Assembly (NCBI GenBank): GCA_947179485.1
Contig: OX359250.1
Coordinates: 2,687,661 to 2,751,660, forward strand
Origin: Allacma fusca
Taxonomy: Eukaryota; Arthropoda; Collembola; Symphypleona; Sminthuridae
Direction of reading: 5' to 3'
DNA: 64,000 bases
Shown piece by piece: positions 4,781 through 62,618 of the stretch (positions are counted from its first letter, which is position 1; the number at the start of each line of letters is the position of its first letter). The notes under the pieces are model-generated. The model saw nothing but the letters and a program-made list of their open reading frames with translations, had not been told where the DNA came from and searched no databases. Both the position numbers and the translations under genes were made by a program.

Positions 4781-5570
4781 GTTTGGGGCCTTCATTGACA
4801 AACCGAAACTAAAGAGAAAACGCCTGGAATAGTAAGCTGTATCAATAATATAGTTAAAACCGTTACTGTATGAAAGTCGTTGAAAATTAATGGGAAATTT
4901 TCTGGACAGGAAAATTCGGTTTTGAAGAAAACGGATTTTCACCGGAGCTAAAAACGATTGTCTGCTGTAGTAGACACCGAAGTGCGTGGAGTAATAGGGT
5001 AGCAAAGTAATCAAATTTTGTGTATAAAAAGTTATTGTCGTAACTATTTTTAAAATGTGTGGAATGCAAGAAGGCATACAAGTCGTAATTATGATGGACG
5101 CGTCAAATGAAGTATAATTATCCATATAACATGTTGTCGTTGAATGAAAATATAGCAAGACAAGAAAATCCTACTTTCATCTTTGTATACTAACCTAGCG
5201 TCCTGTGTTTAGGTCCTGCCCACAGTTTTCCACGTCAGAACCTACAAAGAAACTTCCTGAAAAGTCTCTTGAATTTTCTGAGAAACTTTTGCTAATAGAT
5301 TTTTTGTGAAAGATATTTAGCCAAGAACGTTTTTTCAGATGTTCTCGAAGTCTAAAAATAAGTTTTGGTTATGGAGATTTTGATATTAAAGAATTCGTCC
5401 CAACTAGTTATTGTTACACGATACAACAATTGTTCAGTAACCAATTCACGAAAACTAATTTCATTTCATTCATCTGGTTATTATTTTGGCGTAGTAGAAT
5501 TCGAAAACCTGTATTGTTTAATAAATATAAACCATAAATGATTTCAAATGATTTTTTAAACCGTTTGAAA

Positions 5571-5875: not shown

Positions 5876-6038
5876 ACAATTACCCTAGTACAAACAACAG
5901 ATACTCGGGTACAGGTTTTGGGTACATTATGAGTACATTACGGTAAATTGTGGGTGCAGGTACATTTTAGTTTCGAGTATGGGTACAGGTACTATAGAAA
6001 CGGTACTGTCCCGGCTTCTGTACCCAGTAAGAGCACTG
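5876..6038. mobile_element. Right end of a GGGTAC-family hAT element
   Basis: The segment ends GTACCCAGTAAGAGCACTG at 6038 and is followed by GTTTAGCATGG, exactly as at 13447 and 25003. It carries spaced GGGTAC motifs. Its left end was not found. It probably extends back to about 5.5 kb, where it meets unrelated DIRS debris. Confidence 0.6.
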
Positions 6039-6117
6039 GTTTAGCATGGCGCATTATGGATTTAGTATAATGCCGGGTTCAAAGTGTATAAAATCATCCA
6101 TGTAAAATGTAAATTAC

Positions 6118-7136
6118 CTAGTTCAGGGTATAAATCCTTAAGAAACTCGTCCTTCATTAGCAAATCCGACTGATTCTTAGCCTTAGCAAAATTTCGATTT
6201 GAATGTTCGGTAACGGTATTTGCATAGCAGGGAAAACTCTCTGAAGGGAAGTCATCTGCAACATTCAACTTAACAACTTGCTTGAATTCTGTTACTGAAG
6301 ATCTCACAATCCAGTACTTATACCGGTCTCTGTCCGTTGTTTGATGAACAATGGTCACAGTAAACTGAATTTTGTGTGGACGAGAGCCATCTTTTGGGTT
6401 CCACGTCCAAAAGAAAGATTCCTTCTCTAAGGAAGAAGTTCCGAGTCTTGGGATCGTGTAAGCATACCGCGTGGTCTGCACAAATGAAATAAATGGAGTA
6501 TATCAATGATCAAATGTAAATTGTATACTGTACATAATTACATGGTTCATGCAAACAGAATCTACTGAACGAACGGCCATCTTACCCCGTACTTCTCTTT
6601 GAGCATTGGATCATGTGTACAATCGTGACGTAACTGTCTTTCGCCTTGCATTTTAGCAATGGGATCGGGACAAGCTTTGTTTCCAAAATGACCAACGGGG
6701 ATGCCTTCTTCGTTTAAGGCGATTATTGCCAAAAATTGATACTGTTCAGCATCAACCTCATGCTCAGCCACTACTGATAAAGTGTTTTCGTCCCCTTTAC
6801 CAAACATTTCGTATATTTTGAGGGAAATCGGTGGCAGTGAATCTTGCGGATCGCCTTGAACTTCAAAATGCTTAGTTGCACCACACAACACTTTCTGTCT
6901 GGCAAGTGTTGGAACTCCATGAACTGAAGCGATGGTGGGCCATGGAGTCGGAGCGGATTCCTTTGTTGTGGTTGGTTCTGTAGGAGGTTCTGTTGTGGTT
7001 GGTTCTGTAGGAGGTTCTGTTGTGGTTGGTTCCGTAAAAGGTTCTGTAGATGATTCTATTGTGGAAGGTTCTGTGGAAGTTTCTATTGCAGGAGGTTCCG
7101 TGGACGTTTCTGTAGAAGATTCTATTGTGGAAGATC
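6118..7136 (-). CDS. Module A: mucin-like linker plus Reeler-like domain, exons 6586-7136 and 6118-6475
   Basis: Last module visible in transcription order. The first exon (551 nt, starting in phase 1 at the acceptor before 7136) encodes about 70 residues of Thr/Ser/Glu/Pro repeats, then the segment [20 protein letters not shown], then the first half of the domain with Cys in [15 protein letters not shown] and RHDCTHDP. A 110-nt phase-0 intron (6476-6585, donor GG|GTAAGA, acceptor TTTGTGCAG) leads to the second exon (358 nt) with [16 protein letters not shown] and the fourth Cys in SFPCYANT, ending at CTAG|GTAATT in phase 1. A phase-0 acceptor 16 nt further upstream (TGTAG before 7152) also exists but would not match the phase of the preceding module. 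The exon that should follow 6118 was not found in the first 6.1 kb. Confidence 0.7.
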
Positions 7137-25100: not shown

Positions 25101-28100
25101 TTCAGGATATAAATCCTTAAGAAACTCGTCCTTCATCAGTAAATCCGGCTGATTCTTAGCCTTAGCGAAATTTCGATTTGAATGGTCGGTAACGGTATTT
25201 GCATAGCAGGGAAAACTCTCTGAAGGGAAGTCATCTGCAACATTCAACTTAACAACTTGCTTGAATTCTATCACTGAAGATCTCACAATCCAGTACTTAT
25301 ACCGGTCTCTGTCCGTTGTTTGATGAACAATGGTCACAGTAAACTGAATTTTGTGTGGACGAGAGCCATCTTTTGGGTTCCACGTCCAAAAGAAAGATTC
25401 CTTTTCTAAGGAAGAAGTTCCGACTCTTGGGATCGTGTAAGCAAACCGCGTGGACTGCACAAATGAAATAAATAGAGTATATCAGTGATCAAATGTAAAT
25501 TGTATACTGTATATAATTACATGGTTCATGCAAGCAGAATCTACTGAACGAACGGCCATCTTACCCCGTACTTCTCTTTGAGCAGTGGATCATGTGTACA
25601 ATCGTGACGTAACTGTCTTTCGCCTTGCATTTTAGCAATGGGATCGGGACAAGCTTTGTTTCCAAAATGACCAACGGGGATGCCTTCTTCGTTTAAGGCG
25701 ATTATTGCCAAAAATTGATACTGTTCAGCATCAGCCTCATGCTCAGCCACTACTGATAAAGTGTTTTCGTCCCCTTTACCATGCATTTCGTATATTTTGA
25801 GGGAAATCGGTGGCAGTGAATCTTGCGGATCGCCTTGAACTTCAAAGTGCTTAGTTGCACCACACAACACTTTCTGTCTGGCAAGTGTTGGAACTCCATG
25901 AACTGAAGCCATGGTGGGCCATGGAGTAAAAGCGGATTCCTTTGTTGCACTCATTGTATCTAATATCGTACTTTTTATACTTTCACTGGAAGTGGCCTCT
26001 GATTCCGTCGTGGATGAAATTTCCGTAGCTGGAGTTATAGTTTCTTCCATTGATTCAGTAGTTCCATTTGTTGTTATTTCAGTGGATGATGCTACCGTTT
26101 CTCCTATTGATACTGTAGTCAATTAATTTCAGTTATTATTTTGGTATTGAGTTTTGACGTTTGGGTGTATTTTAACCAGTGCTCGGCACGGGTATGGGTA
26201 ATACTCGGGTAAACGGGTATGGGTACGGGTATGGGTACTACCCGGGTACGGATTTTGTGTACCCGAACAATTCCGGGTACTACCCGGGTACACTTTGGTC
26301 GGCTCAAAATTTCGGGTACGGATACGGGTATGGGTACGGGTACAAGGATTTCAAAATGGGTATATACCCACCGGGTACGGGTATAATGGTGTCATTTACC
26401 CGTACCCGCGACCATTGTACCCGAGTATTTGGATATGTTGAGATTTGAGACATTTTGATGAATTTTATGAAAATAATGGAACTTCCGTTGGAAAATTCTG
26501 TCGGTATTTTTAGTAATTCTGAATACATATAGCTTATTGTTAATACCCTTTTAACCTTACAACATGCAGTAACTGTATTTCAGACTGTGTTGCTAAAATA
26601 TATATTTATATCTATAATATATATATTTATGGAAACAGGTTTTAGGAAGAATAATTAATAAACAGACGAGGAATAATATCAAAATAGAAGTAGAGAATAG
26701 GTTTCAACGAAATTTTATACAAAACGTCTTCATAATGTAGTAATTTGTTACTAATTGCATAAATAGTCTGATTGACACGTATGCACATGATACTTCATTA
26801 GCCACAATTAATCCCATTAATTTGTAAAAATTTTATAAATACTACATCAAACAAGGATAACATAGTTAGTCATAATTAAGCCCTGAAGATGAACACTGTT
26901 TGAGTTCGAAAGCTTGGCAAATAAATTGATTCTAAGCAATATCCACGTATTCCAATTATTTCAACATGGTTGATATTAGCCACAATTAATTTAAAAATTA
27001 GAGTTCCGATGAGTTGGATGGCAAGATATTTTTTGTAATTAGTAGTTGATTAGGAAAAGGCGGATATTTGTAACAAGATATTAATGATTAACATGTACAC
27101 AGAGCTACTGAGATGAGAAAATTAATGTAAAAGGCCGAATAAATCAAGAAGTGAAAAATCGAGTCGCCAAGTCCCAAGCCAAAAATGCATGTACATATGG
27201 ACTGGGTGGTATAAAATACTTCGCCCATCAGCCCATAAACAATCAAATGGGGATAATTTTACTTCTAATCAAAAACGCTCTACTCTTCAATAAAGTATAT
27301 AATGTCAAATACCTCTCTAGCTAGTCAAAATTACCCACTCAGGTGTCATACATTATTACATATAACGTACTATGTATTACATTAAAACAAATCTGGATAA
27401 AGTACCCGGGTACGAGTACGGGTACGACACTGAGATACCCGAGTATGGGTACAATTTTCGAGTATTTTCGGGTACGGGTACAATGCGGGTACAGGTACAT
27501 GGATTGAGATAACATTGCGGGTACGGGTACGAAAAATTTGTACCCGGATATTCGGGTATGGGTACGGGTATAGATACCAGTTATTGAAATACCCGCACTT
27601 CGGGTACGGATACGGGTACGGGTACCGATTTTTCGTACCCGTGCCGAGCACTGATTTTAACACTCAAATTGTTGTAACATTTTACTATAAATCTAAGTAA
27701 ATTAAGGAATACCGCCCCAATATCGGCATTTGTAAAATATTCGACACTTTCCCGGTTTGACGCGGGGAATATTTTTCACTTTAAAGTGGTCCGTATACCT
27801 GCCAAAAATGTTGTTCGGTGGAAACTCAGAGATACTCTTCCAATTATAGCTCCTTATCGAGTTCGAGTATACCGGCGAGTATCGAGTACGAGTTCGAGTC
27901 GAGTACGGTCAAATTTTTGTGAATACTCGATACTTGAAATGGGTTTCGAGTACGGGTAACGATTTTTCACATACTTACGAGTACGAGTATCAAACGAGTA
28001 CGAGTCCAATAAAAATACTCATAAGGATTATCGAGTTCGAGTACCACATGCTCAATATACGAGTAAGCGTACACGTGCACACAAGTGTTGCAAACTTTTG

Positions 28101-31100
28101 AATTTCCAGTAAAGAGACGAAGGCGCGCATGAAATTATCACAAAAAATCGTTGTATCCACCAGACACGGCTCTCTCAGGTTTCTAAAATCTAAAAAAAAT
28201 CACTGTTCAATTGTGGTCTTGTTATTATTAAATACTCGAGTATGAAGACTCGAGTCACGGCACGAGTACGAGTACGGGATTTCGGTATTTACAGTTCCGT
28301 ACTCGCGAGTATGAAACAAGTTCGGGTTCTGAACTGGAACTCGGTCGCTTATTTCAAGTATTTTCCTGAGTACTCGTATATGTGGCGAGTACGAGTACCT
28401 TGGATTGGAGTCCATACTCGATGCTTCGATTTCGAGTACGAGTTCGAGTACGGTTCCGCAAGGTAATCACTCAATAAGGAGCTATACTTCCAATGTATTC
28501 TGAAGCGTAGCTATGATTTTGATAGAAACAACGCTAAAAATATGCTTATACTGACTTATTTTGATACTTGTTGGCGGCTTAAAAATATCGAGTAGCATTG
28601 TCTAGCTGACTTCAGGCTTTAGAGTACTCCAATTGGTTCAGGGGTTCAAAAGTTTTCCATTCTATATGTTTAAACTTTGAAGGGTCCGGAAAGTAGTGTT
28701 TTTTAATGCCTAAGGCACTTTACAAAAGAATTATAAAAACTTGCTAGTCAAAGCAAAACCATCTTGGTAAAAACATAACTAAATGAACACAGAACCTTCA
28801 TAGACCTCCTGTAAACTTTAATCGGGGAAACTATTAAGTTGGGGGAACTTTTATTGTATTTAACTACGTCAGTTTATCAAATGTTAGTTATCTTGAGGCA
28901 CTGGTCGAATTTTTGTAAGAGGATAAGATTCTTCTCAGGGAAAATCTCAAGGAGCAGAGGTCCTTTTTTGCGAACAGGGATTTTAAAATTCGTTGACCTT
29001 TTTTCAGGGATTTTCAAATTTCTTGGCGTATTTCAGGGTAATTTGTTACGCAAACAAGGATTTTCAGATATTATTATATTATTATTATTATTATATTATC
29101 TTATTTGGCAGGGATTTGACGTCTTGTAGCGAAATTATTTAACAGGGAATTTGGAAATCGTTGACTTTCTTTTAAGCATGGATTTTTTAAATCGTTGAGG
29201 GTTTTTTTTGCAGGGACATAAGTAGTAGATATAAAGAATACCACCTCGCATTTTCTATCGATTTTTTCCGGGCACGGCCGACCAATCCCGAGCCTTACCG
29301 AGTGTGAGTATGTTGCATATTCTGAGCACGCTTGTTGGAGTTTGGGAGCTTTCCCGATCGCTCCCGACGACTCCTGGGAGTATGGGGTATTGGTGTACTT
29401 ATTTGAATTTCTATTGATTATTTCCTATTATTATTGATCAGCTGTTCATGCCTGTTGCATCTCCAGCTGCTACTAGTGCTTTTGTTACTCGACAGATGTA
29501 CGCACATGTTCAAATAATTTTCTCGTACCTAAAGGATGTTATAAATACCGCATTGTCAAACTGTATGCGACAGTCTTAGTTTACATATTCCTGTGTAAAT
29601 AATCTGATTGTTAATTCATCATGTTGTCGTCAGTGCGAAATAGTTATTTAAATCAACGATTGGCAGGATCCTATACAGGGATGAGTGCATTACTTAAGAA
29701 TCAACCACACTGGATAGATAAATAGGTAGTAGAAAAAGAGTTGCTAAAATTAAATTCTTACTCTCTACATAAACCAGTGCGTCACAAGTTTCGTAGAAGA
29801 AAAATAATGTTAAACTTTATCAACGAAGTTTGGTCTACAGATCTGAAAGACATTTCGAATATTTCAAAATGGAACAAAAGAAATAACTTTATTGTAATTG
29901 TTGTAGGCAGTTTTAGTAAAATGGTATATGTCATATTGATTAAAAGAACAGATGCAGAATCAATGATTTCCGCATTTCAGTCCATCTTTCAGCAAGAACA
30001 GGCAAAGCTTTGTTTCTGTTCAGCGACCGAGGCAAGGAGTATGTATCGGGAAAATTTCGTGCCTTCCCAAAGGAGAACAAAATCAACCCATACCATATTC
30101 ATAGCCGTAATAAAGCAGCAATCTCGGAGCGTTATATTCCCGGATTATTCGAAAAACTCCAAAGATTCATGACGGAAAATAATACAAGGAGAATCGATAA
30201 TGTTTTACAACAATTTGTAGCGACTTATAATAATACATATCACCGTGCAATAGGTAGACTTCCGAGAGCAGTCACAATTGAAAATCAACATGATGTTTGG
30301 GAGCGAATGTTTGGTAAATATTTAAAGGAAAAAAATGACATGCTTCGGAAACCCTCAAAATATCATGTCAATGATCTTGCTCGAATTTCACGTGCAAAAT
30401 TAATTTTTGAAAAGGGTAAGCGGACAATTCTTATAATTATTATATAATTCCACAAAAATAAAATTAATCAGTCATTTACAATTTAGATTTTGGTTTAATA
30501 GGTTACTCGGAGAATTATTTTCGTGAAGTTTTTCGAGTGACAGAAGTGCAAGATACATTGCTCTGGACGTACTTGTTGGAAGATCTTTCAGTACCACTTG
30601 AAGGAATAAGCGGACAATTTAACGAAGCCGAATTGACTTTAGCAAGCTATCCGGAAAAAGAAGAGGAAGAAGGAGGAGAAAAAAGTCAAAAGCAACCGGT
30701 TTTATCGTAAAAAGAATTAGAGATAGAAAAAAGACTACTTCAACATGTCTCTATCTACAAACTACACACCCCAAAACGGTCATATTGAACCGACAGCCTT
30801 ACGGAGCTTTTTTGCAAACTTATCCAGTGCTAACAACACGAGAGGAATAGGATTCATAGGAAATATTGTACATACATTTCCATCTCCACTCAGACTTGAA
30901 CAGGGTATGTACGATGTTGGTCTACTGAAACTCCGTTATACACGAAAAGAGAAAAAAGACGAAAGGTTACGCGCACAAGGCAAGTTGTACAACCAAGAAC
31001 TACTCGTCGTTTGTTAACCGTAGAAGAGACTATTCCCGATGGTCCCATGTTTCCAGACTTACTTCGTCCAAGCAAAATAACATTAGTATGTAACAACGCA

Positions 31101-34100
31101 GCTGACACTTATGCAGAATTTATTTCTTATGTAAACTTGGAATTAAAAAGAGCTGGCAAAGAAGTTTCATTTAGCACACGAAATGTACAGAATGAAAAAT
31201 ATGTAGTTACAGTAAATCAAAATAATGGCGAAGCAAATGAATTATATTGTTATCTGAAAACTTGTCTACAATGCTTGGCTTCCGTAGAAAATGTTTTTCC
31301 CCTGGAAATTACACTGCAGAAAGTTTGATGACAAGCAGAATATAAAAGTTTACCAAAGCCTACACAATTTGAAATTGAATTTGAAAAATTCCCTTACAAA
31401 AATAATTTGATCACACTGGAACAACAATTTCAAAGTTTGACATACTTTAGAAAACAATAAGTGACTGAGTTTAAAGAATTTTTTAACGCACTTTTCTACA
31501 TGTTGTTGGAATCTGGATTTATTGTTAATTTTAACTTTGATAGTAACAATAAGTGTGTGATGAAAGTACAAACTTCAGCAAAGCACGCTGAAGATTATCT
31601 TATATTACCACTGCCTATCATCTGTAGCTTAGGATTTAATGTTGAAAGATTTAAGATGGGAAAGCATGAGGCTCTTACTCCGTTCAATGCATTGGAATTT
31701 AATAAAATTAAAGCTGAAGACAATTTGCCATTCCGTGTAGGCTGCCTAAGCTACATTTTTCTTCCTATGCAAGAACCAAAAACTATTGGAGTGAAAGATG
31801 TGCTCAATGCTGTGAACGATGTCTTGAAAAATGAAACATACCCCGAATTTCAAGTGAGATTCTCAAATGACAATGGATCGCTTATCGTAAATAAAGTGCC
31901 AAAATATTTTTCTGTTGAATTACCGTATGCAGTAAAGAGCTACTTTGAGCTGCCTTTTGACACTACTTTTAAAAATGTTAGTAGAATTCCCGTAGGACAT
32001 GAAGTTGTTGAACAAGAAGAAGTTCGGGAACATGAAGCCGGGGAAGACGAGATTATTCCAGTTGCTGGAACAGCAAAGAGAATTCTTATAATTTTGAACA
32101 TTATTGAAAATCAATTTTATAACAGTCAACCTATACAATTGTTGGCTGAAACAACCATGACGACTAATTTAAATGAGGAGACAGAAGTTTCATTCCACCC
32201 AGTCACATATGTCCAAGTGAGCGGTAAAGAACTCCGCTCGCTAAGAGTTGACTTTATGAACGAGAAGTTTCAACCCTGGGATTTTTCTGACACACCGACA
32301 TTTGTGACACTACATTTCAGATCTCGTGATTAATTTGTTTAATAATGCGTCACGTTGAGTACAACGATAAAGCTTGTTTCATTCAGCGTCCTCATTCGCA
32401 GTCAAACAACAGCTCTGGATCTGTTGACAACCAGTTAATTGGAGGTGGAAGTGCAGGATTAACTGGTGAAGCTTCAAATTATCTAATTCCATTGAAATCA
32501 GCTTTGTCTACAGACAAGTCTGGGAGTAGGAAACGTAAACGTACAGTACAGCAAGTTGGCGGTTCTGTTAAAAGAAGGAGGAAAAATTCCTCAACGAGGA
32601 AGAAGGCGAAACGTGTATCAACCACGAAAAGAAAAACAAAGGGCAAGGGAAAGAAAAATTAAATAAAACATGTTCAGATCGGAGCAGGCCGACGACGACG
32701 AGGTGGAGAGAGGAAAGGAGGAAACGTAAATCGACGACGGTGTGTAAAATAAATAAAAGAACCAATCGTCGCCATGGATACAAGTTCGGTGTTCCAGGAA
32801 AAACTTGGTGCTTATGCAGGTTCCACTCAATCTTTACGGTCCCAACTAAATCTTTTATCTCTCCCTGAAACGGATGTTAGTGTACAATTCAGTTCTGCCT
32901 ACAGTCCTTGCTATCCTTTGGTTTCCGTTAAGGACGCGTATAACCCTGTGGAATTTTGTACTTGTCAGAATCTGCTGGATAATTGGATTTATCTCAAAGC
33001 TTTATGGCAATGACTCTTAGAATTCTTCGTGCAGATGGCACCAACTGTGACGCTACAGACATTGTAGCTCCTTGCTCTAATTTCTTTCACGGATTTTTTC
33101 AAACTTGGAGCTTTATTTAAATGAAACCCGAATTTGGTAATATGTATGCTACTACAGCATATATTCAACGACTTTTGCCTACAACAGAAATTTCGAAGAA
33201 AAATCGACTTCAGAATGAGTTCTGGTTTCCAAACAACAAGAAGGGAGTTTTTGATGTAACAGACGAAGGATTTAAGGAGCGATACGACAGAGCAAAAATA
33301 TCAAAAGAATTTACATTACTTGGACACTTGAGCTGTAATTTGTTCAACCATAATAACTATCTACCTACAGGAAGGAATTAAGAATCGTTTTACGACGAAG
33401 TATTCCTGACATTTGTATTGATTCAAAAGTAGATACATTGCCAGTGATTTCAGGATGTCCTTATAAAATTCAACTGGTCAAAGCAGTCTTTTATGCCTCA
33501 AAGAAAACAGTTTCACAGCAAATCATGGATATGCACAAATATTAGCTTTCGTTGTGAAAGAAGTTCACATAGTCAATGTGGATTTAAAAACATTTTCCAT
33601 CGCTCAGGGTCTCACTTCAGCATCTAATGAAAACATTGTGTTGGGTACGTATCATCAATGTATGTAGTTTTCTTGAATGCTAATTAGTGACTTGCACATG
33701 ACTAAATCTTTTAAAACCTACAGAAAGGATTCCAAGGCTTTTAATAATTGGTCTGGTCTCATCAGAAGTGTTTCTCGGGAAAGTAACCAAGGATCCGTTC
33801 AACTTTGTCGATAAAAATCTATCACAAGTTGATGTTTCTTGGAATGAAGAGCTGCTACAACACCGAGTGATCCCATTCAGCTTTGCTACAGCCAACGGGG
33901 CAGGCACGGACGATTCTCTGTACGCTTTACAATCCCTCAAGCACACTGCAAATTCAGAATTATTGGGAAACGGAATCAATCGTTCAAACTATAAGAACGG
34001 CAATGTACTGCCGGCTGCTCTCAGTCTTCAACATATATTCTACATCTGTGTTTGTAGAATGGAGATCTATCTTTCTCCATAAACTGTCGCCCCAAGTATT

Positions 34101-37100
34101 CCCTTGTGAATTTGTTCCAGCAGCCTGTAGCACTTTGAAGCCATAACAGTTGCATTTTCTGAGAAGATAGAGTTGTACATTGTTGTTATAATGCTTTTCG
34201 CAATTATTGCTCGCATTAATTTACTTCCAGTCTCCAGACGCAGGACGTATCCAGGAGTGAGATTGCAGGCTCCAGTAATTCTTCGTAAAAATTTAGTCTG
34301 TATCTTTTCCATTTCATCTACAAACTCCATTCCCCAAATTGGGAATCCGTAGAGTGGGATTGTTGTTACTAAAGAGTTGAAAAGTCTCATGATGATTTCT
34401 ATACCGTTCAGTTTGGTTGACCTAGTAGTGTTTAAAAGTAACTCGACTGCAGCGTTGGTCTTCAAAAGGGTTTGTTTGAGGTGGTAGAGGAATTTTCCGT
34501 TTCGATGAAACTCCACTCCTAAATATTTGCTACTTAATATTTCCATTGTAGTAGAATTCCATTCGCATAACTTTGTTTTTCTTTGTTGGTACTGGTCCTT
34601 TTCCAAAAATTACCACCTTAGTTTTTTCCAGGTTTATGTTGAGATCGTTTCTGCTGAAGAATCTGTTGAGAATTCCGATCTGGGTTTGGAGGTCTGCGGG
34701 GGAGTCTGCTGTTAATACGATGTCGTCCGCGTAAAGTAGGATGGTAACTTCAGTGGTAAGCAGTTTCGCACCTCGTACTTTGGATTTGACAGGATCAATA
34801 TATATAGAGAATAACGTCGGACTCAGTGTTTCCCCCTGCAGTACTCCATTAAGTACGTCCATGAAATTTGTATATCCCCCTGATGTTTGGATTTTTGCCT
34901 TTACTTGACTGTATATTTTTTGTATCTTCAGAAGAATGTAGGCAGGTACTCCCAGCGTTTCTAACCTATCCCATAGACGTTTCTTCTTAATGGAATCAAA
35001 TGCCTTTGGCAGATCTACGAATAAGCAGTACAACTTCTTCTGGTTTGCCAGCGCGTTCTGTATTAGAGTGTTTAATACAAACAAGTGGTCTGAACAGCTT
35101 CTATGCTTTCTGTATGCTGCTTGGGATTCTGCTAACGCCTTATGTTTTTCGATCCATGTGTGCAGTCGCTTTGACAGGAGCATCGTAAATAGCTTTACTA
35201 TTGTGTTGACTAAAGAAATTGGTCTGTAGTTACAAGGTGAGTTTTTGTCACCCTTCTTATATATTGGAGCTATGATTATTTCCCCCCACGTATCAGGGAT
35301 GGGATTTGCAAGGCACTTATTCATGCATTCTAATAGACATGGCCGAAATTCCAGTGGTAAGTATTTCCAGATTTCGTTAGGAATGCCGTCTGTACCTGAG
35401 CTCTTATTGTTTGATAATTTCCTGAGTGTCTGATTCAGTTCATCAAGATGAAATGGTTGGTGTGCCGTCTGTATCTGTCGGTGAGGCGTACTGTCCACTC
35501 CGTCGAATAGGTTTCTGTAGTGATTTTCCCAGGCTTCATTAGAAATTAAATTTGTAGTTTCGCCTCTTCTTTTATTGCATCTGAAAATGTTCAGACTTTT
35601 CCAGAAGTCTGTCGAGTTCTTTGAGGATATGATGGTATTCCTTAAAGACGTGTAGTATTCTAGCTTGGAGTTAGAGGTGTGTTACTTGTATTGGTTTCTT
35701 GCGTTTTTGTATTCTGTTGTCTGTTGTTGGTTTCCTGGGTTTTGCCGTAATACTTTTAGTCTTTCGTTGCATTTTTTCTTTAGCTTTCGACATCCTTTGG
35801 TTGAACCATTTGGGTGCATTATGTCGAATTTCTCCTATCCTTCTGGTTGTTTTCATTCCAGACAATCTTGTAAGCAGACAAATGCATACCATTTAAAAAT
35901 CAATGTAAAATTGCGTGATAAGTGAAAAATGTTAAATAAAAACTATTGCATTTCTAGCTATACAAACAGTCTATTCCATTTTATTGAGTAGTCAACATCA
36001 GTATGTTGAGTGAGTCAACAAGTGAAGGTAAAGGCAGTATCAATTTTCAAGTGTCACATCCAGCAACTATTTTAGTAGCAGGGAGCACTGGTACTGGAAA
36101 AACCTACGCTATCCTGGAATTAATTAAAAGACGAAAGGAATTTTTCGACGTTGAGAAACATTGAGAAAGTTGTATACGTTTATAGTGTATTCCAACCTGT
36201 ATTTTTCCAATTGCATGAAGAGGATCTCAACGTAATATTTACAAATAATTGAAAAGACATTGAATCTATAGCATCCTCGCCTTGTCTGGTGTGTATAGAT
36301 GATCATCAAGAGGAAATTACACGAGGCGAAAATCTTGAACTTGTAACCAGATATTTTACCAAGTATTCGCATCATCTAGGAATAAGCCTTATATTAATTA
36401 CACAGAATATTTTTCAAAAGAATTTGAGAACTATTAGTTTGAATTCTCAAATTTTAATTTTGTTAGACTCTCCGAGAGATAGAAGTACTATTAAAAACAT
36501 TGACAGACAAGTTTGTCCAGGACAAGTTAAGATGTTAACTGAAGCGTATATAAAGGCTATGACTGCAAATCAATTTGGCTTATTATTTCTTGACATGAGT
36601 CCTAAAAATAAAATGTATCAATATTGGGTTCGCAATTCAATATTTCCAAATGCTGATACTGAAGTTTATTCAGCCTCATAAAATGGAATATACTCTATTA
36701 GAGAAGCATATTTTTAAACTCTACAAGTTGGCGCAAATAGAAGACCGATCCAAGTTTATCTCTGTCTTAAATAAATTAAGTAAAGTCCAAGTTAAAGCAG
36801 TGGTGGAGACAATAATTAATACAAATAAGTTTTGCAAATCGTTACCCCAAAAAGTAATTACTATTATTAAAAAACTTAAAATTTGCGTGGAAGCAAAAAA
36901 AGATTGTAGACCTACGCTCATTAGGAACGCAGTTTTAATACGGAGTATCTTGACAGTTGTGCTGTTGAAAGTCATTACCTGTGAACTAATTGCAGTGTTA
37001 ACTATCAGCTTACAGTGAAATGGCTAAAGTGTATCGTGTACTTGAACCTCGTCTTTTCGGTTCGCTTATGAAAATATTCCAACAGCAGTTTAAGCATACC

Positions 37101-40100
37101 GATGTGGAAAAAGCACTAGAAGCTGAAACAGCCGATGTTTCTAATACACAAGGTACGAGTCATATCAAGAATAATCCGAGCCATGTAGCCAACGAATCAT
37201 CAACGACACAACTATCCGACGTTGAAAATAAAGTTGAAGTTGCAAACGTCGACGAGGGGTCAGAAAGTGTTGAAAATAAGAAGAGGAAAATTATCCGTGT
37301 ATGTTGTTGTCAGTTACCACAGGTAAAGCATAGAATAAAAACTACTGATTCTGAACAATTTGATAGCGTTGAAGGAAATCTTCAAATCAACAATCAGTAT
37401 TTTTTTCTATACTTTACCTGTGGTAACTGACAACATACACGGATAATTTTCCTGTTGTTATTTTCAACACTTTCTAACCCCTCGTCGACGTTTGCAACTT
37501 TAACTTTTTTCAACGTCGGATGGTTCAAACGTTGAGGGAATTGATAAAAATGACGAAGAAGCTCTAAAAAACAACAACGACAACGTTAATGCTGCTAATG
37601 ATAAATTATCTGCAGAGCTCAATGAGCGAAAAAAGAATTTAAGACCGCGAAAAAATCAGCGAGGTTATGGAAAAGGAAAATCAATTTTGAATAAAAAAAT
37701 TAGGGACAATAAGAAACGTCAGAATAAAACCAAGCGACGGGTTAGGCAAAAACGTATTAACGTTGTAAAAGTGAGACGGTGAGAAAAATGTTACGTGCGA
37801 GAAAACTACTTGTTTGTTTCATTTTTTCCTTTGGATGCTGTTTTTTCTCTGGCAACGAGTGAAGCAGATATTTTATATGAGCAGGAACATATGGATACGT
37901 GCACAGAAAGGGTGTGCTCTGCCGGTTTGACTCAACAAGTTAGAATCCTCAACGAAAAATTCATATTCTGTCAGCAACGTACTGCTTAGCAACATATACG
38001 TTTTACTTCGAAAGGTTCTATACGATGGAATAGATCACAACAACTCGAACAGCTCTAGTGGAGTGGCGAGCAATGTTGATTTGCTCTCCCATGCAGAGAA
38101 CCAAAAACCAGCGTATTCTACAGTATTTCTGCGTTCCATTCTCGTAATAATTACACTGTACAAACTATGTGCTGCTGCATATAACGTCTGGAAAAGTACT
38201 TCATCCTCAGCTTCTATATCTGGTTAGTCAGCTTAACATTTCAATAATGGATTCGTTTTCATCGTCGTCGTGAGGATGCAACACATTGTGAACATTGTCG
38301 TCGTGAATTTACTAAGAGTGACGACCATATGACTGGCGCTAGCAGATTGGGGCATGTTATGACATTGACGATCAGGGGAATGTTATACCTATTGAGGAGT
38401 CAGATTCAGAAGAGGAAGAAGAAGAACAGGCACCATCCTCATTGGCGTCAGCCGAGACTGATTTTGGTCCACGTGCTAAAAAAGCTAAAGTGACGAATGA
38501 CTCAAGCACGCTACAAAAGCGCGTAGTTAAAGTACATAACCATAATCATGACACAGGCTTGTATGAATCAAGTCTGTGCCAAGGATGCAACCTTCGTATT
38601 AGATATAAATATGAATTGCCATGCATATGTCATAACAGTAGCAAGTACGACCATCATTTGTTACTTAAGTACATGAACACGTCTTTATTTGATTTTGAGG
38701 ATATAATGGAAGTATAGCCCGGTGGTGGTAAGGGCAGTAGAACCGTAATAGACAATAGTTCGTGGAAATGTCGAAATTAAGTATGAGTATGTGCTGAGCA
38801 ATAATGTTAAAAATGATGGCTTTAGAAACAGATGTGTGATAAATTGACAAATTAAAGTTTATTTTTCAATACTAATTCTGGCTTGCTTTCAGGTGTACTT
38901 ATGGAGAGAGATTGGTTTCTTGTTCGAGTCATAAAATACATTAGTAATATTAGCACAAAGAACTTGAGCGGTTTTTGCGTCAATGCGAAGGTACATCATA
39001 GCAGGGAATCTGTCCAGAACTTAAGATAAGATAAAATAAGGGTCATCGCTCGGTCACTTGTTAACAAGCTAAGATTAAATATACCTGAACTTTTCTGGAA
39101 TATTTTCCACTGACTTGTTCTAAATAATATGTGTAGAGAAACAATGTAATCGCAAAATCTGGAGAACAATTTGTTCCAGTTGAAATATTAGCTAGATATA
39201 TGTATATACCTCCACTTTTTACAAATTACGGAGGCGACAGAAAAAACTCGAAAAAAGCATGGTGCGGAAATGGGAAAGCAAAGTTGCGACTGCTCGACAG
39301 CTATCAGTTTTTGCCTCGCTCTTTGTCAAATCTAGTTGAAAGTTTGAAAAAAGAGGATTCTCTACATTATGATATATTAAATCAAGCAGTGCGTTCGGTA
39401 TTGATACCTCAAGGTTTTATTAAACTCGATTCTGATTTCTCCACTCGTCGCCTAAATATGTAAAATATTAACAAGCATTCACTTTCATTAATGGTCATGT
39501 CTACTTATGCAAATAGCTAAGGAAATGATGGAAATTAAATGATCACTCCGTGGGCTGGATAAAAATAGACTGAAAATCGAATTCAACCTCTTCTGTAGCA
39601 AATTCGTCCACATCCCAGCCTTCCAAAGCCTCATTTATATCCTGCATGTAAGTCCACACCACATCTTCTTCTTCTGCTTCATCATGACCGTCAACATTGT
39701 CATTCCTTTCATCCTGAGCTAACGACCTATAATTTTCAATTCCTTTGGAGCATATTGGCAGTGCTGGCGATGGTGCGACATCCTCCTGCTTGTTATTACA
39801 GTTGTCATCCTTACTGTTAGCTACTATCGATGTTTCGACTGAAGTTGTTTCACCCACATTGCTGCTGCTGCTTTCTGGCTCTTCTTCTTCCAAATATTTC
39901 TCTTCTTCCTGCTCGGCACCAACAACAACAACAGCAAGAGCTTTCTCATTTCCTATGCTACCAGAGTCCTCTGCAGCGTTCTGTGATAAATGAGATGTAA
40001 ATTGATTCTGGTCTGCATTAGAATCAGCTGAAAGTTCAGCGAGAAGACCAGCCAAATACTTTCCACCTGGACCTTACAATGTCAAACTGTTTGTTGCTGG

Positions 40101-43100
40101 TGCTTCTTCAGTTGAGGTTACTATAATAAAACAACGATTAAATTAAATTAAAAACAAATTATTTAAAACAACAAAACTTAAATCAACTACAACTATATCC
40201 TAGAGGGAAAATGAAAAGAAAAAACTACCTTTCAACTTTTTTTGGAGACCTTCCTACTTCAATGTTATCTAACACTTCGTTTGGAATTATCCATGGAACC
40301 TCGAGAAAAGGAATTTATTTTTTATTTACTTTGACGAAGTGCAGGGTTTCTCCAGTAGACAATACAACTTGCTTGGACAGTGCATTTTTGTGTGCTTTCC
40401 CCATTTTGGCATCTGTCTTCAATGCTTCAACGATTTGTTTACGTTCGTTCATTATGGAATTTATTTCTTGGGTTTTGTTTTGCTCAACTTGTCGTTTTGC
40501 AGAACTAGAGACCGTCAACCAGCCATCACTGCTGTCGAGATTTGCATTGGTGCTAGTTAAACAGCTTGACGACGTACTTGCTTCACTTCTTGCTTTGGAA
40601 CGTGATGAGCTAGGTAACTTTTGTGTGTGCAACGAAAAACATTTGATGTGTGTAATGTGTTCACACCTGGGCTGGTCTTTTGCTCGGATTCTCACTAACG
40701 ATTCAATAGGCCAGTTGAGCCATCCCACTGCTGCATAAAATCTTGAACAAAATTCCCTTCATGGTCGTGAAGTTTGTTTTGTTCAAAAAAATGAAGTAGT
40801 TTAAAATCATTTTTGCCTTCTATAAATATATTAGTGTGACACTTTGCACAAATCCACATGTTGACTGAGTTGTTTAAAATACTTACTTTATTCAAAATAA
40901 TGGAATTATAGGATCCACACATTATAGTTACACGGATTCAGTATTTTTATCATAAGTAAAAATTGTAAAATAAGAACATATTCGAACGTTTTATATTGAA
41001 TGTTGAGCATATATAAGAGTTAATACATTATTTTATCATTTCACCGTAAAGCTGTCTTAGTTCAACATTCACAAATATACATCATTCTATGTCGGTATAA
41101 TTATACTATAACATGAAAAGAGTATTTGAAGTTTACATTGGAAAATACTTGCACCGAGTCTGTAACAATTTATATTTTTGCACTTCTCATATGCATATTA
41201 TTGCATAATAGATTCACGCACTGGACGAGAGTTATCTCTTACGTAGGAAAGAGAATAGTTTTCAACTGTAGCAGAGACTCGGGAAGGTAGTGCAGGAGAA
41301 AGAATGATTTCATCCATTTCAATTTCACCTTGAAAGCACGGTACCAGATTTTCCATCCCGCCCGTCATTGACGATGGGGAACCGCGAGTAAGCTCACCAT
41401 ACGGATTTTCCTCACTATCCTCATTTCTTATTCCTACTTGTGCCATTGTAAATTTCCTTCTCCTACGTTTCCAATATGCGATAAACCCACACGCAATGAA
41501 TGCCGTCAGAAGAAATACGAGCAAGACACACAATGTAACTGTGAGAAAGAGAGAGAGAAAGCCAAAAACCAATATTTTTAATATTAGTAATTGAATGAAA
41601 TGTTTCTTCTCAAATGAAGCCTGAATCATGTAATTAAACACGCGTACCTATCACTGTGTGGGCAGAAGCTTGGGGCGGGATGTCCGAGCAGCTTTTCATC
41701 TTTGAAATTACAGTGATCCACTCCGCGTCTAAACTCTTAATATTGAGAATGCAGCAAACCGTCTGATTTACGAGCGTAACGTAGGAAAATCCTTTGGATA
41801 CGCAGTCATAGCAACCAAAGTGAATACCACAACCTGAACAAAAAAAGTTTGTGAACTGTATTACTTACTAAATATGTAATGACGTTAAGCATAACTACTA
41901 AAATGTAAACTGAAATCAATAATTATTAGATAAATCTACACGAGCTGTAAAATATATATGTAGTTGTAGCTTACCGTCAAAAGCCATCGTAATTTGTATG
42001 AATATTCCAAATTATCAGAATCTTTAATTTACATGAACACCTAATTATATTCAGTGGAGATGCCCATGTAAAATGAAAATGTCAACCTGATGATGAGAAA
42101 TCATAATGCAAGAAACTTACATTAAACGTTCAGACTTGTAATACAATATTGCAAGCCAAGAATCATTTGTTTAAAAAGAAGTCAACGTTCAGACATGTAA
42201 TACAATATTGCAAGTCAAGAATCATTTGTTTATAAAGAAGACGATATCGCATACATGTATCAATTTAAATAACATGTAAAATCTCATTGCGTCAAATGTG
42301 ATGTAAAAAGAGAGCAATGGAACAGTGCTTGGATGGTACTACATATACAGAAATAGAAGTGCAGCTGGAGGTGCAGCTGAAGTAGGTGCAGCTGGAGGTG
42401 CAGCGGGAGTATGCGCAGCTGAGGGTGCAGCCTGAGGTGCAGCGGGAGTATGTGCAGCTGAGTGTGCAGCGGGAGTAGGTATAGCTGGGGGTGCAGCGGG
42501 AGTAAGTGCAGCTGAGGGTGCAGCGGGAGTAAGTGCAGCTGGAGGTGCAGCGGGAGTATGTGCAGCTGGGGTGCAGCGGGAGTAAGTGCAGCTGGGGGTG
42601 CAGCGGGAGTATGTTCAGCTGGGGTGCCGCGGGAGGTGCAACTAAATATATCATCCTAGCCTAAAGCATGTATTTTGCTTGCAACTTCCGACAATGTGGT
42701 GTCTTAGTGATTTCATGCGACCTGCTTGTAGCCTATAATGAGGTCATTTTAGAGTAAACACTTGTTAAGGTGTTATGAATAAATCAAAAGTTATGAAAAG
42801 CTAAAGTTGTTACTTGTCTCAAAAAATTACATATTATACCTAACAACTTCAGAGACAATGTGGTATCTTAATGATTTCATGTGACCAGCTTGTTTTAGAG
42901 TAAACATTTGTTGCGGTGACCTGAATAGAACGATCCTTAAGGTATGAGGAAATTATTTGAACATGTGCGTACATCTGTCGAGTAACAAAAGCACTAGTAG
43001 CAGCTGGAGATGCAACAGGCATGAACAGCTGATCAACAACAATAATAATATTCGGAAATAATCAATAGAAATTCAAATAAGTACACAGATACCCCATACT

Positions 43101-46100
43101 CCCCGGAGTCGTCGGGAGCGATCGGGAATGCTCCCAACTCCAACAAATTCTACTGAGCATGCTCAGAATATGCAACATACTCAAACTAGGCAAGGCTCGG
43201 GATTGGTCGGCCGTGCTCGGAAAAAATCGATAGAAAATGCGAGGTGGTATTCTTAATATCTACTACTGACATAAAATTCAGCACGGAAATTCAGAAATGG
43301 AGTTTTCAAAGGAGATTTACAAAAATCCAATCCCTGTCTTGAGGTATCTGACTTTCAACAGGGGTGCAAAAATTCTACTCTGAACCTCAGCTCGTAAATC
43401 CCTGTGTGGGCTTCACCGGTTCAATTGATACTAGAATTTCCAATTTAAGGCTTCAAATAAATGCCAAATCTTTTCATGTCTTAACGGAGTTTTCAGAGAG
43501 CTTCTAAATGCTCTTGCTGGGAGTCCGTTGCCCCAGTGTATTTTATTAATACCAGGTATTTTACATATTTTAAAGTCTCAGGTTTGCATACAAGAAGGTT
43601 CACCAAACCAAACAATCGTAACAGCAACATAATGAAGACTATTGTGGTTATCAATGTGCTTTGAATGTCAAAGATATTTGGATTGTTTTCAAAAATCATT
43701 TTTGTTTATACTAAATTTTTTAGAAGAATGTGTATGTAGTAAAAGTTAGCTTAACTGTCGGGAGCATTTTGCATCTTCTGTTAATTTTGGCCCACTTTTC
43801 AGAACTTTTAAAATATTTCTTTTATTAAATGCTTATTTTCTTAATGGAATTTGATACTATTGACTTTTTACCGAATTTTTATCCAATTAATTATTGCAGT
43901 TATGATCGTTTAGGTAACTTGCATGCAAATGGAATAAAATATTAAAATACGATCATTTACAAATGCCTCTCCCTTGAAGTAGGGCTCGGAGTTTGTAAGG
44001 ATGACAGGAAGATTGTTTTTACGTAAAATAATATCCAGATGGTAATGTCTTTCTTACAAGAATTTAAAGATGCAGTAGGAAAAACAAAAATCGTCTTCCA
44101 GGGAGGTTTACAAAAATCCTACTAATTAATTACTAATTAATAATAACTAAATAAAAGTATTACAAATTACAACAAGGTTTCATGTAGCTTGAAGCGTTAC
44201 CTGGGGAAGTCTGGGGTTGAAGTGTAGTATTGTGTGTGTTACGAATGAGAGTTGCTTTTCTACAGAAGGTCTTAAATTTTCTACCCTGACCCAGGACAGT
44301 GCGGCCTACCCTAGATTGCAATCCTGATGTATTTCGGCGATTATTCGTTTAGATAATTTATATGCATTTGAACGACTAATTTAGTTACTTTGTATCAGGG
44401 TTGGTTTGGTTTAAACGAAATCATTTAAACCGCGCCGTGATTTCTCGTTGGAAAATTTTAGTTGGACACGGGAGACGGGGAGACCACTTATTAACGAGTT
44501 AGAATTTAAAAATTCTGCACGATTTCCCACTCAAGCTAGGGCGAGATGGCCCGAACTTTTGTTCTTGCTGGGACATTGGGCCAGGTTACACAAAATTTAA
44601 TTTGGATCCCGAGTGGGCGTATGGCGAGGATTATTTGTTAGCATATTATTTAATTAAAAAAATTCAGGAAGAAAACAGGACATTGTGTGGTTAAACTTTA
44701 GTGAAGTGAATTAAATAATGGTAGCCTCTGGTCTTGTACGTTTAGAAATTCGGAATCGCTTGTAGAATAAAAAAGCTGCCAAACTTGTGTTTATACTGCA
44801 AACTTATCGGCTGAGTTCTACTTTCCCGGCCACAAAATTATGTTCCACCTTCCACTCACTCATATATTAACACTATAATACATAAGTAACTTCCACCAGA
44901 CTGCCACCTTCCATCAACCTTCCCCTTGATCATTCCACCTGACCTTCCAAGTGACTGCCCACATTACCCATACTGACCACTCTGTAGTCTGGCTTTGACA
45001 ATATTTAGAAAGAGCTAACTAAAAAAATACTATATTGCCCCCTACATGAATTACTGCATGGCCGAAGCTCATTTCTTTGGTGCCCATTCATCTGAAAATG
45101 ACAGTCTTGGATCAATTTCGATGTGTTAACTTATGTTTCGCATTTTTTATTCGTAAAATTAACACGGAGGTTAAAGCACTTGATTGTTTTAAGTTAAAAC
45201 TAACTCGTGTAGTTAACTATAAAAATGCAGGGTACCTTTGAGGAAACAAGTTACTGTTACAAAATCATTATATGATATGTACAAGTATGATGGTGGGATT
45301 TCGATGGTGTTGTGTAGAATTATGTCGAAGGACTGATAAAAATCAACCACTGGAAAACCACATGATTCGAAAGAGCTCAGTTGCCGTACTTCCCGGTGAA
45401 CTGATTTTTAACAAAATTTTTAAAACGTTTCTGCAAAGGTGGGCACATATCCTATATTTATGCATAAATATACGCAGTTTTTTATGTATGTTCGCACGTT
45501 TCCCGAATATTTGTATGCAATATTTGTAGGCTCCAAGTTTCTACTAAAACACTGTATGATACATGTATGTATGCTGTGAATAATGCATGTACTAGTATGT
45601 ATGTATAAAAGACCGGGAGATTTAGGTATGTATGTACCGTGTATGTTCAGCGAGCTCCATCTGTATTTTCTTGGCACGGTATGTGTCTATTGGTGTATTC
45701 GCATTAGTTTTTATAAAGGTTCATAACGTTTAACATACACTTTTTTAGACACGTGTACATACATACACTTATTACTTAAATTTATTTATATGCTGCATAT
45801 ATGTATGATTAAATTTCTGGAGAAATTTATGTATGCAAAATGTATGCTCTTTGTTAACTATAAAATGTATGTATGATTTAGGACAGGAACTGTTTTTGCC
45901 CACCTTTGGTTTCTAGCAAATTCCGTAACAACTAACAACTAACGACTAATGGTAAGACTCAAACTTAGAGTTGCGACTTACTTTTTCCAATAAATAAAAA
46001 CGCTGATTCACGGTTTGAATAGTCGCACACAGGGGCAACGCATTAACTATCTCCAGTTCGCACTTTGTGTTTCACCCACCAGAACACAGAGGGTTAGTTA

Positions 46101-49100
46101 ACACAGGGAAACCAGGTAGAAGGACCTTCCATCTGGCCTCTAATTGAAAGATCTGGAAGGTAAAAATCTGTAAAATTTTGGTTGAAGGTCAAGTGAAAGG
46201 TCTAGTGGAAGGTCTAGTGGAAGGTGGAAATCCTGGTGGAAGGTAATTTTCTGGCCGGGAAAGTAGAACTCAGCCAACTTATCGTAAAAATTATATCGAA
46301 ATTATTAAATATTTAATGCTTTATGATTACTATTTCCCAAACTCAATAAGTATCAATTTGTTCAAATTTACATGTTTTTGCAAATTAATGAATGTTTTGG
46401 ATTGAAAATTTGTTTAAACCAAAAAAAAAACCGGTTTAAACCAAAAAAACCTGGTTATTTAGTTTAAACAAAAATCCAAAACATTCATTAATATGCAAAA
46501 ACATGTAAAGAACAAATTTACTATTTCCCAAACTCAATAAGTATCATACTGTAAAGCATTAAATATTTAATAATTTCGATATAATTTTGACGATAAGTTT
46601 GCAGTATAAACACAAGTTTGGCAGCTTTTTCATTCTACAAGCGATTCCGAATTTCTAAACGTACAAGACCAGAAGCTACAATTATTTACTTCACTTCACT
46701 AAAGTTTAACCAAAAAAACCCCCAACCCTGCTTTATATACACTGGGGCAACTATCCATTTAGCTACGTGGATTGAGCCAATTATGTATTTAACTACCTTT
46801 TACGTAAAGCTTGATGCGTTTAGCATGGTGCATTATGGATTTAGTATGATGCCGTGTTCAAAGTGTATAAAATCATCCACGAAAATGTACATTACCTAGT
46901 TCAGGATATAAATCCTTAAGAAACTCGTCCTTCATTAGTAAATCCGACTGATTCTTAGCCTTAGCAAAATTTCGATTTGAATGGTCGGTAACGGTATTTG
47001 CATAGCAGGGAAATCTCTCTGAAGGGAAGTCATCTGCAACATTCAACTTCACAACTTGCTTGAATTCTATCACTGGAGATCTCACAATCCAGTACTTATA
47101 ACGGTCTCTGTCAGTTGTTTGACGAACAATTGTCAAAGTAAACTGAATTCTGTGTGGACGAGAGCCATCTTTTGGGTTCCACGTCCAAAAGAAAGACTCC
47201 TTCTCTAAGGAAGAAGTTCCGAGTCTTGGGATCGTGTAAGCATACCGCGTGGACTGAACAAATGAAATAAATGGAGAATATTAATGATCAAATGTATCGT
47301 TTGCTAAATTCTAAAAAAATGCTTTTTAAATGGGTTCGCAAGTGAAAACGGTACTTTTTAGAATTTAGCCAACCATATATTATATCGTCGCTGAAGAGGC
47401 AAAACGGACTAAGTGCAATTTCGACTAGAAGCAAAATGGTCTACACGCCTTTTCTCTTAAAGGCAAAACGGAATAGTTGCAAGCTTTCCTGAAAGCAAAA
47501 TGAACTACATGCAGTTTTCTCTAAAAGCAAAATGGTCTACATGCTTGTATACATTCATAATGGCCATTCTTAAAGCCAAATTGTATGTAGACCATTTTGC
47601 TTTTAGACGAAATTGTAAGTAGACCATATTGCTTTTAAAACTTAATGCATCTATTCCATTTTGCATTTAGTAAAACTGCATGTAGACCTTTTTGATTTTA
47701 ATCGAAAATGCATGTATTCCATTTTGCCTCTTCAGCGACGATATATTGCATATACATGGTTCATGCAAATTGAATCTACTGAACGAACGGCCATCTTACC
47801 CCGTACTTCTCTTTGAGCATTGGATCATGTGTACAATCGTGACGTAACTGTCTTTCGCCTTGCATTTTAGCAATGGGATCGGGACAAGCTTTGTTTCCAA
47901 AATGACCAACGGGGATGCCTTCTTCGTTTAAGGCGATTATTGTTAAAAATTGATACTGTTCAGCATCAGCCTCATGCTCAGCCACTACTGATAAAGTGTT
48001 TTCGTCCCCTTTACCAAGCATTTCGTATATTTTGAGGGAAATCGGTGGCAGCGAATCTTGCGGATCGCCTTGAACTTCAAAATGCTTAGTTGCACCACAC
48101 AACACTTTCTGTCTGACAAGTGTTGGAACTCCCTGAACTGACGCGATGGTGGGCCATGGAGTAAGAGCGGATTCCTTTGTTGGGGTTCGTTCTGTTCTGG
48201 CAGATTCTGTAGTAGTAGGTTCTGTTCTGGCAGATTCTGTAGTAGTAGGTTCTGTTGTGGTTGGTTCTGTAGAAGGTTCTGTTGTGGTTGGTTCTGTAGA
48301 AGGTTCTGTTGTGGTTGGTTCTGTAGAAGGTTCTGTTGTGGTTGGTTCTGTAGAAGGTTCTGTTATGGTAGGTTCTGTAGAAGGTTCTGTTGTGGTTGGT
48401 TCTGTAGAAAGTTCTGTTGTAGTTGGTTCTGTAGAGGATTCTGTTGTGGTTGGTTCTGTAGAAGGTTCTGTAGAAGGTTCTGTAGAAGGTTCTGTAGAAG
48501 GTTCTGTAGAAGGTTCTGTAGAAGGTTCTGTTATGGTTGGTTCTGTAAAAGGTTCTGTTGTGGTAGGTTCTGTAGAAGGTTCTGTAGAAGGTTCTGTTGT
48601 GGTTGGTTCTGTAGAAAGTTCTGTTGTGGTTGGTTCTGTAGAGGATTCTGTTGTGGTTGGTTCTGCAGAAGGTTCTGTTGTGGTAGGTTCTGTAGAAGGT
48701 TCTGTTATGGTTGGTTCTGTAGAAGGTTCTGTTGTGGTAGGTTCTGTAGAAGGTTCTGTTGTGGTTGGTTCTGTAGAAGGTTCTGTTATGGTTGGTTCTG
48801 TAGAAGGTTCTGTTATGGTTGGTTCTGTAGAAGGTTCTGTTGTGGTAGGTTCTGTAGAAGGTTCTGTTGTGGTTGGTTCTGTAGAAGGTTCTGTTATGGT
48901 TGGTTCTGTAGAAGGTTCTGTTGTGGTAGGTTCTGTAGAAGGTTCTGTTATGGTTGGTTCTGTAGAAGGTTCTGTTGTGGTTGGTTCTGTAGAAAGTTCT
49001 GTTGTGGTTGGTTCTGTAGAGGATTCTGTTGTGGTTGGTTCTGCAGAAGGTTCTGTTATGGTTGGTTCTGTAGAAGGTTCTGTTGTGGTTGGTTCTGTAG

Positions 49101-62618: not shown

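Follow-up and report, generated by a model that had tools for sequence, protein, structure and literature searches.

A predicted giant Reeler-DOMON-b561 gene with fifteen modules in the collembolan Allacma fusca

Does a row of look-alike two-exon modules, spread over most of a 64,000-nucleotide stretch of the genome of the globular springtail Allacma fusca, belong to one gene, and if so, what kind of protein does that gene encode? The stretch (contig OX359250.1, here C9; C9:2687661-2751660, hereafter the window) carries eight such modules on its minus strand, and the first-pass annotation took them for a single secreted, mucin-like Reeler gene of at least 2,690 codons. When the window was analysed together with 80 kb on either side (224 kb), the series was found to run on to fifteen modules (M1 to M15), followed by exons for a DOMON domain and a cytochrome b561 core. 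The reading favoured here, with a probability of roughly 0.86, is that these exons form one giant gene for a membrane protein of the Reeler-DOMON-b561 type. The single gene proposed earlier is thus very probably right and is extended to 5,380 codons, as indicated by short introns, an open frame and partial public models.

Exon structure of the predicted gene

The predicted exon chain comprises 39 exons over 118,482 bp, with 5,380 codons and no internal stop; fifteen two-exon modules (30 exons) are followed by four DOMON exons and five b561 exons. The features are as follows, in window coordinates unless C9 is given, with negative numbers lying to the left of the window.

C9:2631797-2750278, minus strand: full gene model, 39 exons, 5,380 aa
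1..62618, minus strand: part of the gene in the window, from the ATG at 62618 towards the stop at -55863
62618-62094, minus strand: M1 exon 1, with Met, signal-type hydrophobic stretch and first half of the Reeler-fold module (predicted)
61965-61599, minus strand: M1 exon 2, phase-1 donor after 61599; M1-M2 junction also in public model P0004
59717-59323, minus strand: M2 exon 1
59215-58852, minus strand: M2 exon 2
54298-53781, minus strand: M3 exon 1
53238-52890, minus strand: M3 exon 2
51403-50865, minus strand: M4 exon 1
50754-50397, minus strand: M4 exon 2
49385-47800, minus strand: M5 exon 1, holding a 417-aa Thr/Ser/Pro/Glu linker
47253-46896, minus strand: M5 exon 2
26104..46895, minus strand: M5-M6 intron, 20.8 kb, with virus-like open reading frames (ORFs; by eye) and a reverse transcriptase of the long interspersed nuclear element (LINE) type
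26103-25565, minus strand: M6 exon 1
25454-25097, minus strand: M6 exon 2
14545-13995, minus strand: M7 exon 1
13884-13527, minus strand: M7 exon 2
7136-6586, minus strand: M8 exon 1, identical to M7
6475-6118, minus strand: M8 exon 2, identical to M7
-9165..-10711, minus strand: M9, left of the window
-10797..-21373, minus strand: M10, left of the window
-25750..-26770, minus strand: M11, left of the window
-26993..-27920, minus strand: M12, left of the window
-28993..-29993, minus strand: M13, left of the window
-32231..-33103, minus strand: M14, left of the window
-34790..-41225, minus strand: M15, left of the window
-41317..-42456, minus strand: four DOMON exons, left of the window, after M15
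-47644..-55863, minus strand: five b561 exons, left of the window, end of the gene

The modules were detected with profiles of both module exons, built from six window modules and searched against the 5,295 ORFs (at least 25 aa) of the 224 kb. Each profile gave 15 matches at an expectation value (E) of 5e-27 or better and a next best of 0.83, so the series is not due to chance. Seven of the fifteen modules were absent from the profiles and lie outside the window, to its left and on the same strand as M1-M8, while the exon-profile search found no further module over the 80 kb that lie right of M1; the count of eight is a product of the window's edge, not of biology. Four cysteines are kept in every module. 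M7 and M8 lie within an exact duplicate of 4,960 bp (5920-10879 and 13329-18288, spacing 7,409), a very recent duplication or gene conversion, and M8 is therefore not independent evidence. Among eight old module pairs, the synonymous divergence (dS) is 2.0-2.8 and the ratio of nonsynonymous to synonymous divergence (dN/dS) 0.19-0.29 in five, dS not being computable in three; among eight recent pairs (M4-M9), seven have dS of 0.026-0.074 and dN/dS of 0.06-0.65, and the eighth, M7-M8, is identical. The modules have been kept as proteins.

All eight window modules occupy the places, and use the splice sites and phases, that were first assigned to them, and the pairs 58852/54298, 50397/49385 and 46896/26103, across which splicing had been expected, are exact exon ends of the model. 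The inner intron is in phase 0 in all eight and each module ends in phase 1, so that the exons of M1-M8 add up to an open frame of 2,691 codons and one extra base; all fifteen modules are modelled in the same way. First-exon donors were chosen by a conserved K-Y-G motif, with alternative sites listed in all phases for M1-M8. For M9-M15 the list was restricted to phases 0 and 1, which makes the agreement there partly one of construction, and among M4-M9 the phases agree because these copies arose by recent duplication (dS at most 0.074). The inner intron measures 110 nt in M4 and M6-M9 as opposed to 546 nt in M5, where an inverted-repeat element (47381-47745) accounts for the greater length.

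The case for one gene rests on how the modules are joined. From M1 to M15 the junction introns measure 1881, 4553, 1486, 1011, 20792, 10551, 6390, 15282, 85, 4376, 222, 1072, 2237 and 1686 nt, and the shortest junctions, M9-M10 (85 nt), M11-M12 (222 nt) and M15-DOMON (91 nt), could not accommodate both a gene end and a new gene start, which supports a single gene. The DOMON and b561 exons occur once in the 224 kb, after M15 (tblastn, E <= 0.01), and a Met with a hydrophobic stretch is found in M1 alone, as the first-pass annotation had it, with M2-M15 beginning behind acceptors. Transcription as one mRNA, including the junctions across the long introns, is predicted from this chain of exons.

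Two public A. fusca protein models coincide with parts of the prediction. P0001 (441 aa) shares an exact block of 396 residues, spanning M15 exon 2 and DOMON exons 1-4, and continues from there into intron sequence. P0004 (448 aa), which has no Met, joins M1 to M2 and matches the prediction exactly in two blocks, residues 40-349 (310 residues) and 421-550 (130 residues). When the last part of the gene was used to search for proteins, 57% of it matched an 'unnamed protein product, partial [Allacma fusca]' at 100% identity, and in the protein database searched the gene appeared as no more than two short pieces, both entered as 'unnamed, partial'. P0001 and P0004 derive from contigs of 3,814 and 6,876 bp, and these small sources may explain why they were not joined into the whole gene. 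According to the genome paper (PMC10427803), existing RNA-Seq data are to serve in the annotation of the species.

The last exon was recognised through the public protein of a one-module paralogue, P0002, which has it; an earlier model ending at C4 (5,337 aa) was replaced since P0002 revealed one further exon. The stretch -42305..-42597 was ruled out as a last exon, being DOMON exon 4 with the same read-through as in P0001. No polyadenylation hexamer was found within 700 nt downstream of the stop. The gene is most likely located on chromosome X2.

The modules, their linkers and the terminal domains

In the Pfam check that the first-pass annotation had proposed, 12 of the 15 modules were scanned in joined form and none reached the curated PF02014 cut-off of 21 bits, the best score being 19.3 bits (E 0.0017, M3), and the profile appeared at E <= 10 in four of the first six modules scanned and in none of the other six. 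At the level of predicted structure, a moderate-quality model suggests a Reeler fold. The model is that of the module of the one-module paralogue rather than of the giant gene's own modules, and its top seven Foldseek chains in the PDB were all F-spondin Reeler (three entries: 2ZOT, 2ZOU and 3COO; E 3.3e-5 to 1.2e-3), although identity is 11-14% and the aligned model residues, 22-205, form a longer stretch than the 135-143-residue chains. The structure of M5, a window module, modelled with its 546-nt intron read through and stops as Ser, had a mean predicted local distance difference test (pLDDT) score of 39.0 and no usable fold. The Reeler-like nature first assigned to the modules thus stands on the predicted fold of the paralogue's module and falls short of the Pfam cut-off. 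Aligned with the genome's Pfam-positive Reelers by hhalign, the module profile gave P 0.036 (probability 1.4%) and, once rows had been added, P 0.0027 at a probability of 11% (score 25.8); one of 60 column shuffles reached that score (an outlier at 136.6), the others scoring at most 19.1.

Several other matches were discarded: Foldseek sandwich matches to adhesins, pilins, complement and integrins, as a common arrangement; Pfam matches to Herpes_glycop, Rhv_5, Alpha_GJ, HRM and others, as below cut-off; and a PDB sequence match of the module at E 2.3, as chance. The module alone had no match at E <= 1 among 983 protein database candidates, probably because full-length relatives fall outside the length limits of the search. 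Elsewhere in the genome there are 18 Pfam Reeler matches, and C10, C8, C12, C5 and C1 carry Pfam-positive Reelers separate from this family; four of the 18 cluster at C10:3568366-3595024 as single Reeler genes.

The linkers of M5, M7, M8 and M9 contain 46-52% Ser+Thr and 19-20% Pro and reach 417 aa, while the remaining linkers of M2-M15 contain 32-57% Ser+Thr and just 4-10% Pro. A 27-bp minisatellite of 41.5 copies (48212-49326) encodes the M5 linker, and the M9 linker is a TTTEP repeat; both are likely length-polymorphic. These are mucin-type linkers, Ser/Thr/Pro-rich and tandemly repeated, as had been claimed for them, and they are predicted to be O-glycosylated.

Behind M15, the DOMON domain exceeds its Pfam cut-off (PF03351, 35.6 and 34.7 bits against 32.7), and SSDSNMGDD at residue 4970 fits the motif SXDXXMGXD described for the CYBDOM family (PMC10691727). 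The b561 profile PF03188 scored 20.0 and 19.8 bits against a cut-off of 23, in two queries that lacked the last three exons; the first query contained an imprecise join, and in the second the match covered profile positions 1-122 of 137. The DOMON-b561 query is 48% identical to P0002 over 99% of its length and 51% identical to P0003 over 69%, and both proteins carry precomputed PF03188. Four b561 histidines stand at 5140, 5181, 5219 and 5254. Candidate histidines for the DOMON heme lie at +83, +88, +133 and +134 from the DOMON Met (Met4975), the last (His5109) aligned with a His of P0002 and P0003; in Drosophila CG8399, the DOMON heme ligands Met286 and His379 are 93 apart (PMC10691727). A PDB sequence search with the DOMON-b561 part and an NCBIfam scan gave no matches.

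Since the gene ends in DOMON and b561 exons, its product is read as membrane-anchored and of the Reeler-DOMON-b561 (CYBDOM/FRRS1) type, and the earlier description of a wholly secreted mucin-like protein is abandoned. The predicted protein would be a giant CYBDOM/FRRS1 protein whose ectodomain has been amplified internally and is strung on mucin-like linkers, and by analogy with the family its role is probably that of a plasma-membrane electron donor. Its approximately 5,380 residues would comprise a signal peptide, fifteen four-cysteine Reeler-fold modules on Ser/Thr-rich linkers, a DOMON heme domain and a b561 core. For CG8399 and mammalian SDR2 (FRRS1, ferric-chelate reductase 1), it has been proposed that b561 takes electrons from cytosolic ascorbate to the extracellular DOMON heme, where ferric iron may be reduced (PMC10691727). 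By family likeness, cytosolic ascorbate would here reduce the b561 hemes, from which the electron would travel to the heme of the extracellular DOMON domain; ferric iron, or another acceptor outside the cell, would then receive it. The Reeler array, which is long and probably O-glycosylated, could stand out from the cell as an extended brush and either hold the redox head in position or bind microbial surfaces or matrix as ligands. That electrons are transferred, the chain glycosylated, ligands bound and the protein cut by furin (see below) is in each case what we infer.

One gene and the alternatives to it

A single locus need not yield a single product. The modules are 1-1 symmetric in the gene model, so splicing may include variable subsets of them; the 5,380-aa product might then be rare, and the array would serve as a source of length or ligand variants. 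P0004 offers a possible instance, since it omits 71 residues of M2, but the omission lies inside an exon (M2 exon 1, 59323-59717) and could be either an alternative intron or an annotation error. Many isoforms from one locus are possible, although we would not expect them to be the rule.

The product might also be a secreted mucin after all. A furin-type site, R-V-K-R, occupies residues 5077-5080, with 5,076 residues ahead of it, including the signal and 1,069 Ser/Thr. Cleavage there might free the ectodomain, and if the whole Reeler array were released, its main function could lie in matrix or immunity instead of electron transfer. An R-x-K-R stands at the matching place in P0002, P0003 and, by eye, a three-module paralogue (L035). 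The site falls after the DOMON Met and before the candidate heme His, however, and predicted cleavage may therefore not release the array. We regard the secreted mucin as an unlikely reading. Because R-V-K-R separates the Met from the aligned His, a bound heme could keep the two fragments attached to each other after the cut. It is conceivable, as a long shot, that furin clips between the two DOMON heme ligands, that heme holds the cleaved ectodomain at the surface, that heme or redox state controls release, and that module skipping varies the length of the array.

Some points weigh against a single gene. Whereas short gaps favour one gene, long gaps leave room for a start, and the gaps of 6-21 kb between M5, M6, M7, M8 and M9 contain mobile elements, with 14 hydrophobic ATG ORFs in the M8-M9 gap. 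Moreover, P0004 reads beyond the M2 donor to a stop and not on to M3, which slightly lowers confidence in one gene. On this basis there could be two or more genes: a downstream one (e.g., M9-M15 with DOMON and b561, its own first exon lying in the 15-kb M8-M9 gap) and a truncated or degenerating M1-M8, cut off by mobile-element insertions. A scan for signal exons (ATG, hydrophobic core and phase-1 donor) found none in five of eight intervals (upstream of M1, M1-M2, M2-M3, M3-M4 and M4-M5) and four candidate rows in total across M5-M6, M6-M7 and M7-M8; a looser scan without the donor score found none in three of 11 intervals (M9-M10, M11-M12 and M15-DOMON) and 1 to 24 ATG ORFs in each of the other eight. 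Against several genes, the gaps are without DOMON or b561 end exons, M2-M15 begin with acceptors and not with starts, the paralogues place the signal in the exon of their first module, and the domain exons of M4-M9 are intact, with the dN/dS values given above. A division into two or more genes is accordingly improbable, and one gene remains the preferred reading.

An assembly artefact, in which tandem copies arose from haplotype duplication or misassembly, is scarcely credible: M7 and M8 do lie within 4,960 identical bases, but the other modules differ from each other, the 224 kb contain no N, C9 (48.06 Mb) matches X2 (48.07 Mb) in an animal reported as male from a species whose males are haploid for the X (PMC10427803, PMC9630974), and the M1, M2, M15 and DOMON exons recur in the separate public contigs of P0004 and P0001.

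The introns and surroundings of the gene also contain mobile elements. Virus-like ORFs of Polinton/Maverick type, integrase- and ATPase-like by eye, lie at 29726-40738 within the M5-M6 intron, and those at 29944, 31461 and 36253 had no Pfam match at E <= 0.01. LINE-type RVT_1 domains are found in introns at 34533-35681 (minus strand; E 1.2e-34) and 20752-21606 (plus strand; E 2.7e-6 and 3.1e-7). A second virus-like mobile element, by eye from its ORFs, spans about -60780 to -75562 (L019 and L020), approximately 5 kb past the end of the gene.

Paralogues, relatives and growth of the array

Used as a query against the genome, the M4 module had 38 matches among the best-scored candidates, and more distant copies may exist. 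Thirty are the module exons of the giant gene; of the remaining eight, six fall at C9:42.46 Mb and the other two at C9:4.95 Mb. These two belong to the one-module paralogue (L036), whose 807-aa protein P0002 is called Ferric-chelate reductase 1 in UniRef, and the six to the three-module paralogue L035, with signal, DOMON and b561 exons by eye. Both paralogues carry the signal in the exon of the first module, followed by DOMON and b561 exons. A database search with the DOMON-b561 part found three A. fusca matches among 6,872 candidates, and one with the module region of P0002 found P0002 and P0004 (two of 364 candidates). The one-module paralogue shares signal, module (62% identical to M1), DOMON, b561, furin-type site and corresponding exons with the giant gene, but it has a single module and no long Thr-rich linker was seen in it. 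L035 shares the plan and the Thr-rich linkers (by eye) and differs in having three modules, of which the second and third look almost identical by eye.

These relationships were examined in a tree of 17 modules, which omitted M8 (identical to M7) and did not include the third L035 module. M1 is joined to the module of the one-module paralogue with support 100/99, and the two L035 modules to each other with 99/96, while a split of 100/99 separates these four from M2-M15; M4, M5, M6, M7 and M9 form a tight group (100/100). The array is therefore read as having grown inside the giant gene, behind an ancestral module, with M1 as the ancestral copy, M2-M15 as an internal expansion and M4-M9 as its youngest burst. 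It would have grown from a one-module ancestor as exon pairs with symmetric 1-1 phases were duplicated within the gene, in support of the duplication of symmetric modules put forward earlier.

Outside this genome, the closest plan is that of CG8399 and SDR2, with which the predicted protein shares the order Reeler, DOMON, b561, the motif SXDXXMGXD and the four b561 histidines. As described in PMC10691727, this type has a reeler, one or more DOMONs and cytb561, in contrast to the fifteen Reeler-fold modules, mucin-like linkers and ~5,380 aa predicted here. The insect Reeler immune proteins (PMC3616906) likewise have a Reeler domain behind a signal peptide; there, it is a single domain of 124-137 aa and nearly the whole protein. 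Among 888 insect CYBDOM hits, 19 have two DOMONs, and in the parts of that source available to us no mention was found of more than one reeler per CYBDOM (PMC10691727). Searched by titles and abstract openings, the literature yielded no work on a CYBDOM protein with many Reeler modules. To our knowledge, the CYBDOM family has no larger member. The first-pass view that the architecture is not one known for Reeler proteins holds for the number of modules and not for the parent Reeler-DOMON-b561 architecture, which is known (PMC10691727).

That this gene is present in the database only as two short partial pieces means that giant genes of such a kind can be missed. Taken together, one chromosome presents a series of one, three and fifteen modules, in which duplication of exon pairs appears to have turned the ectodomain of a redox protein into a mucin-like array. 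The paralogue with a single module provides a ready control, and with copies that differ in module number, the role of the Reeler domain in the CYBDOM family becomes testable.
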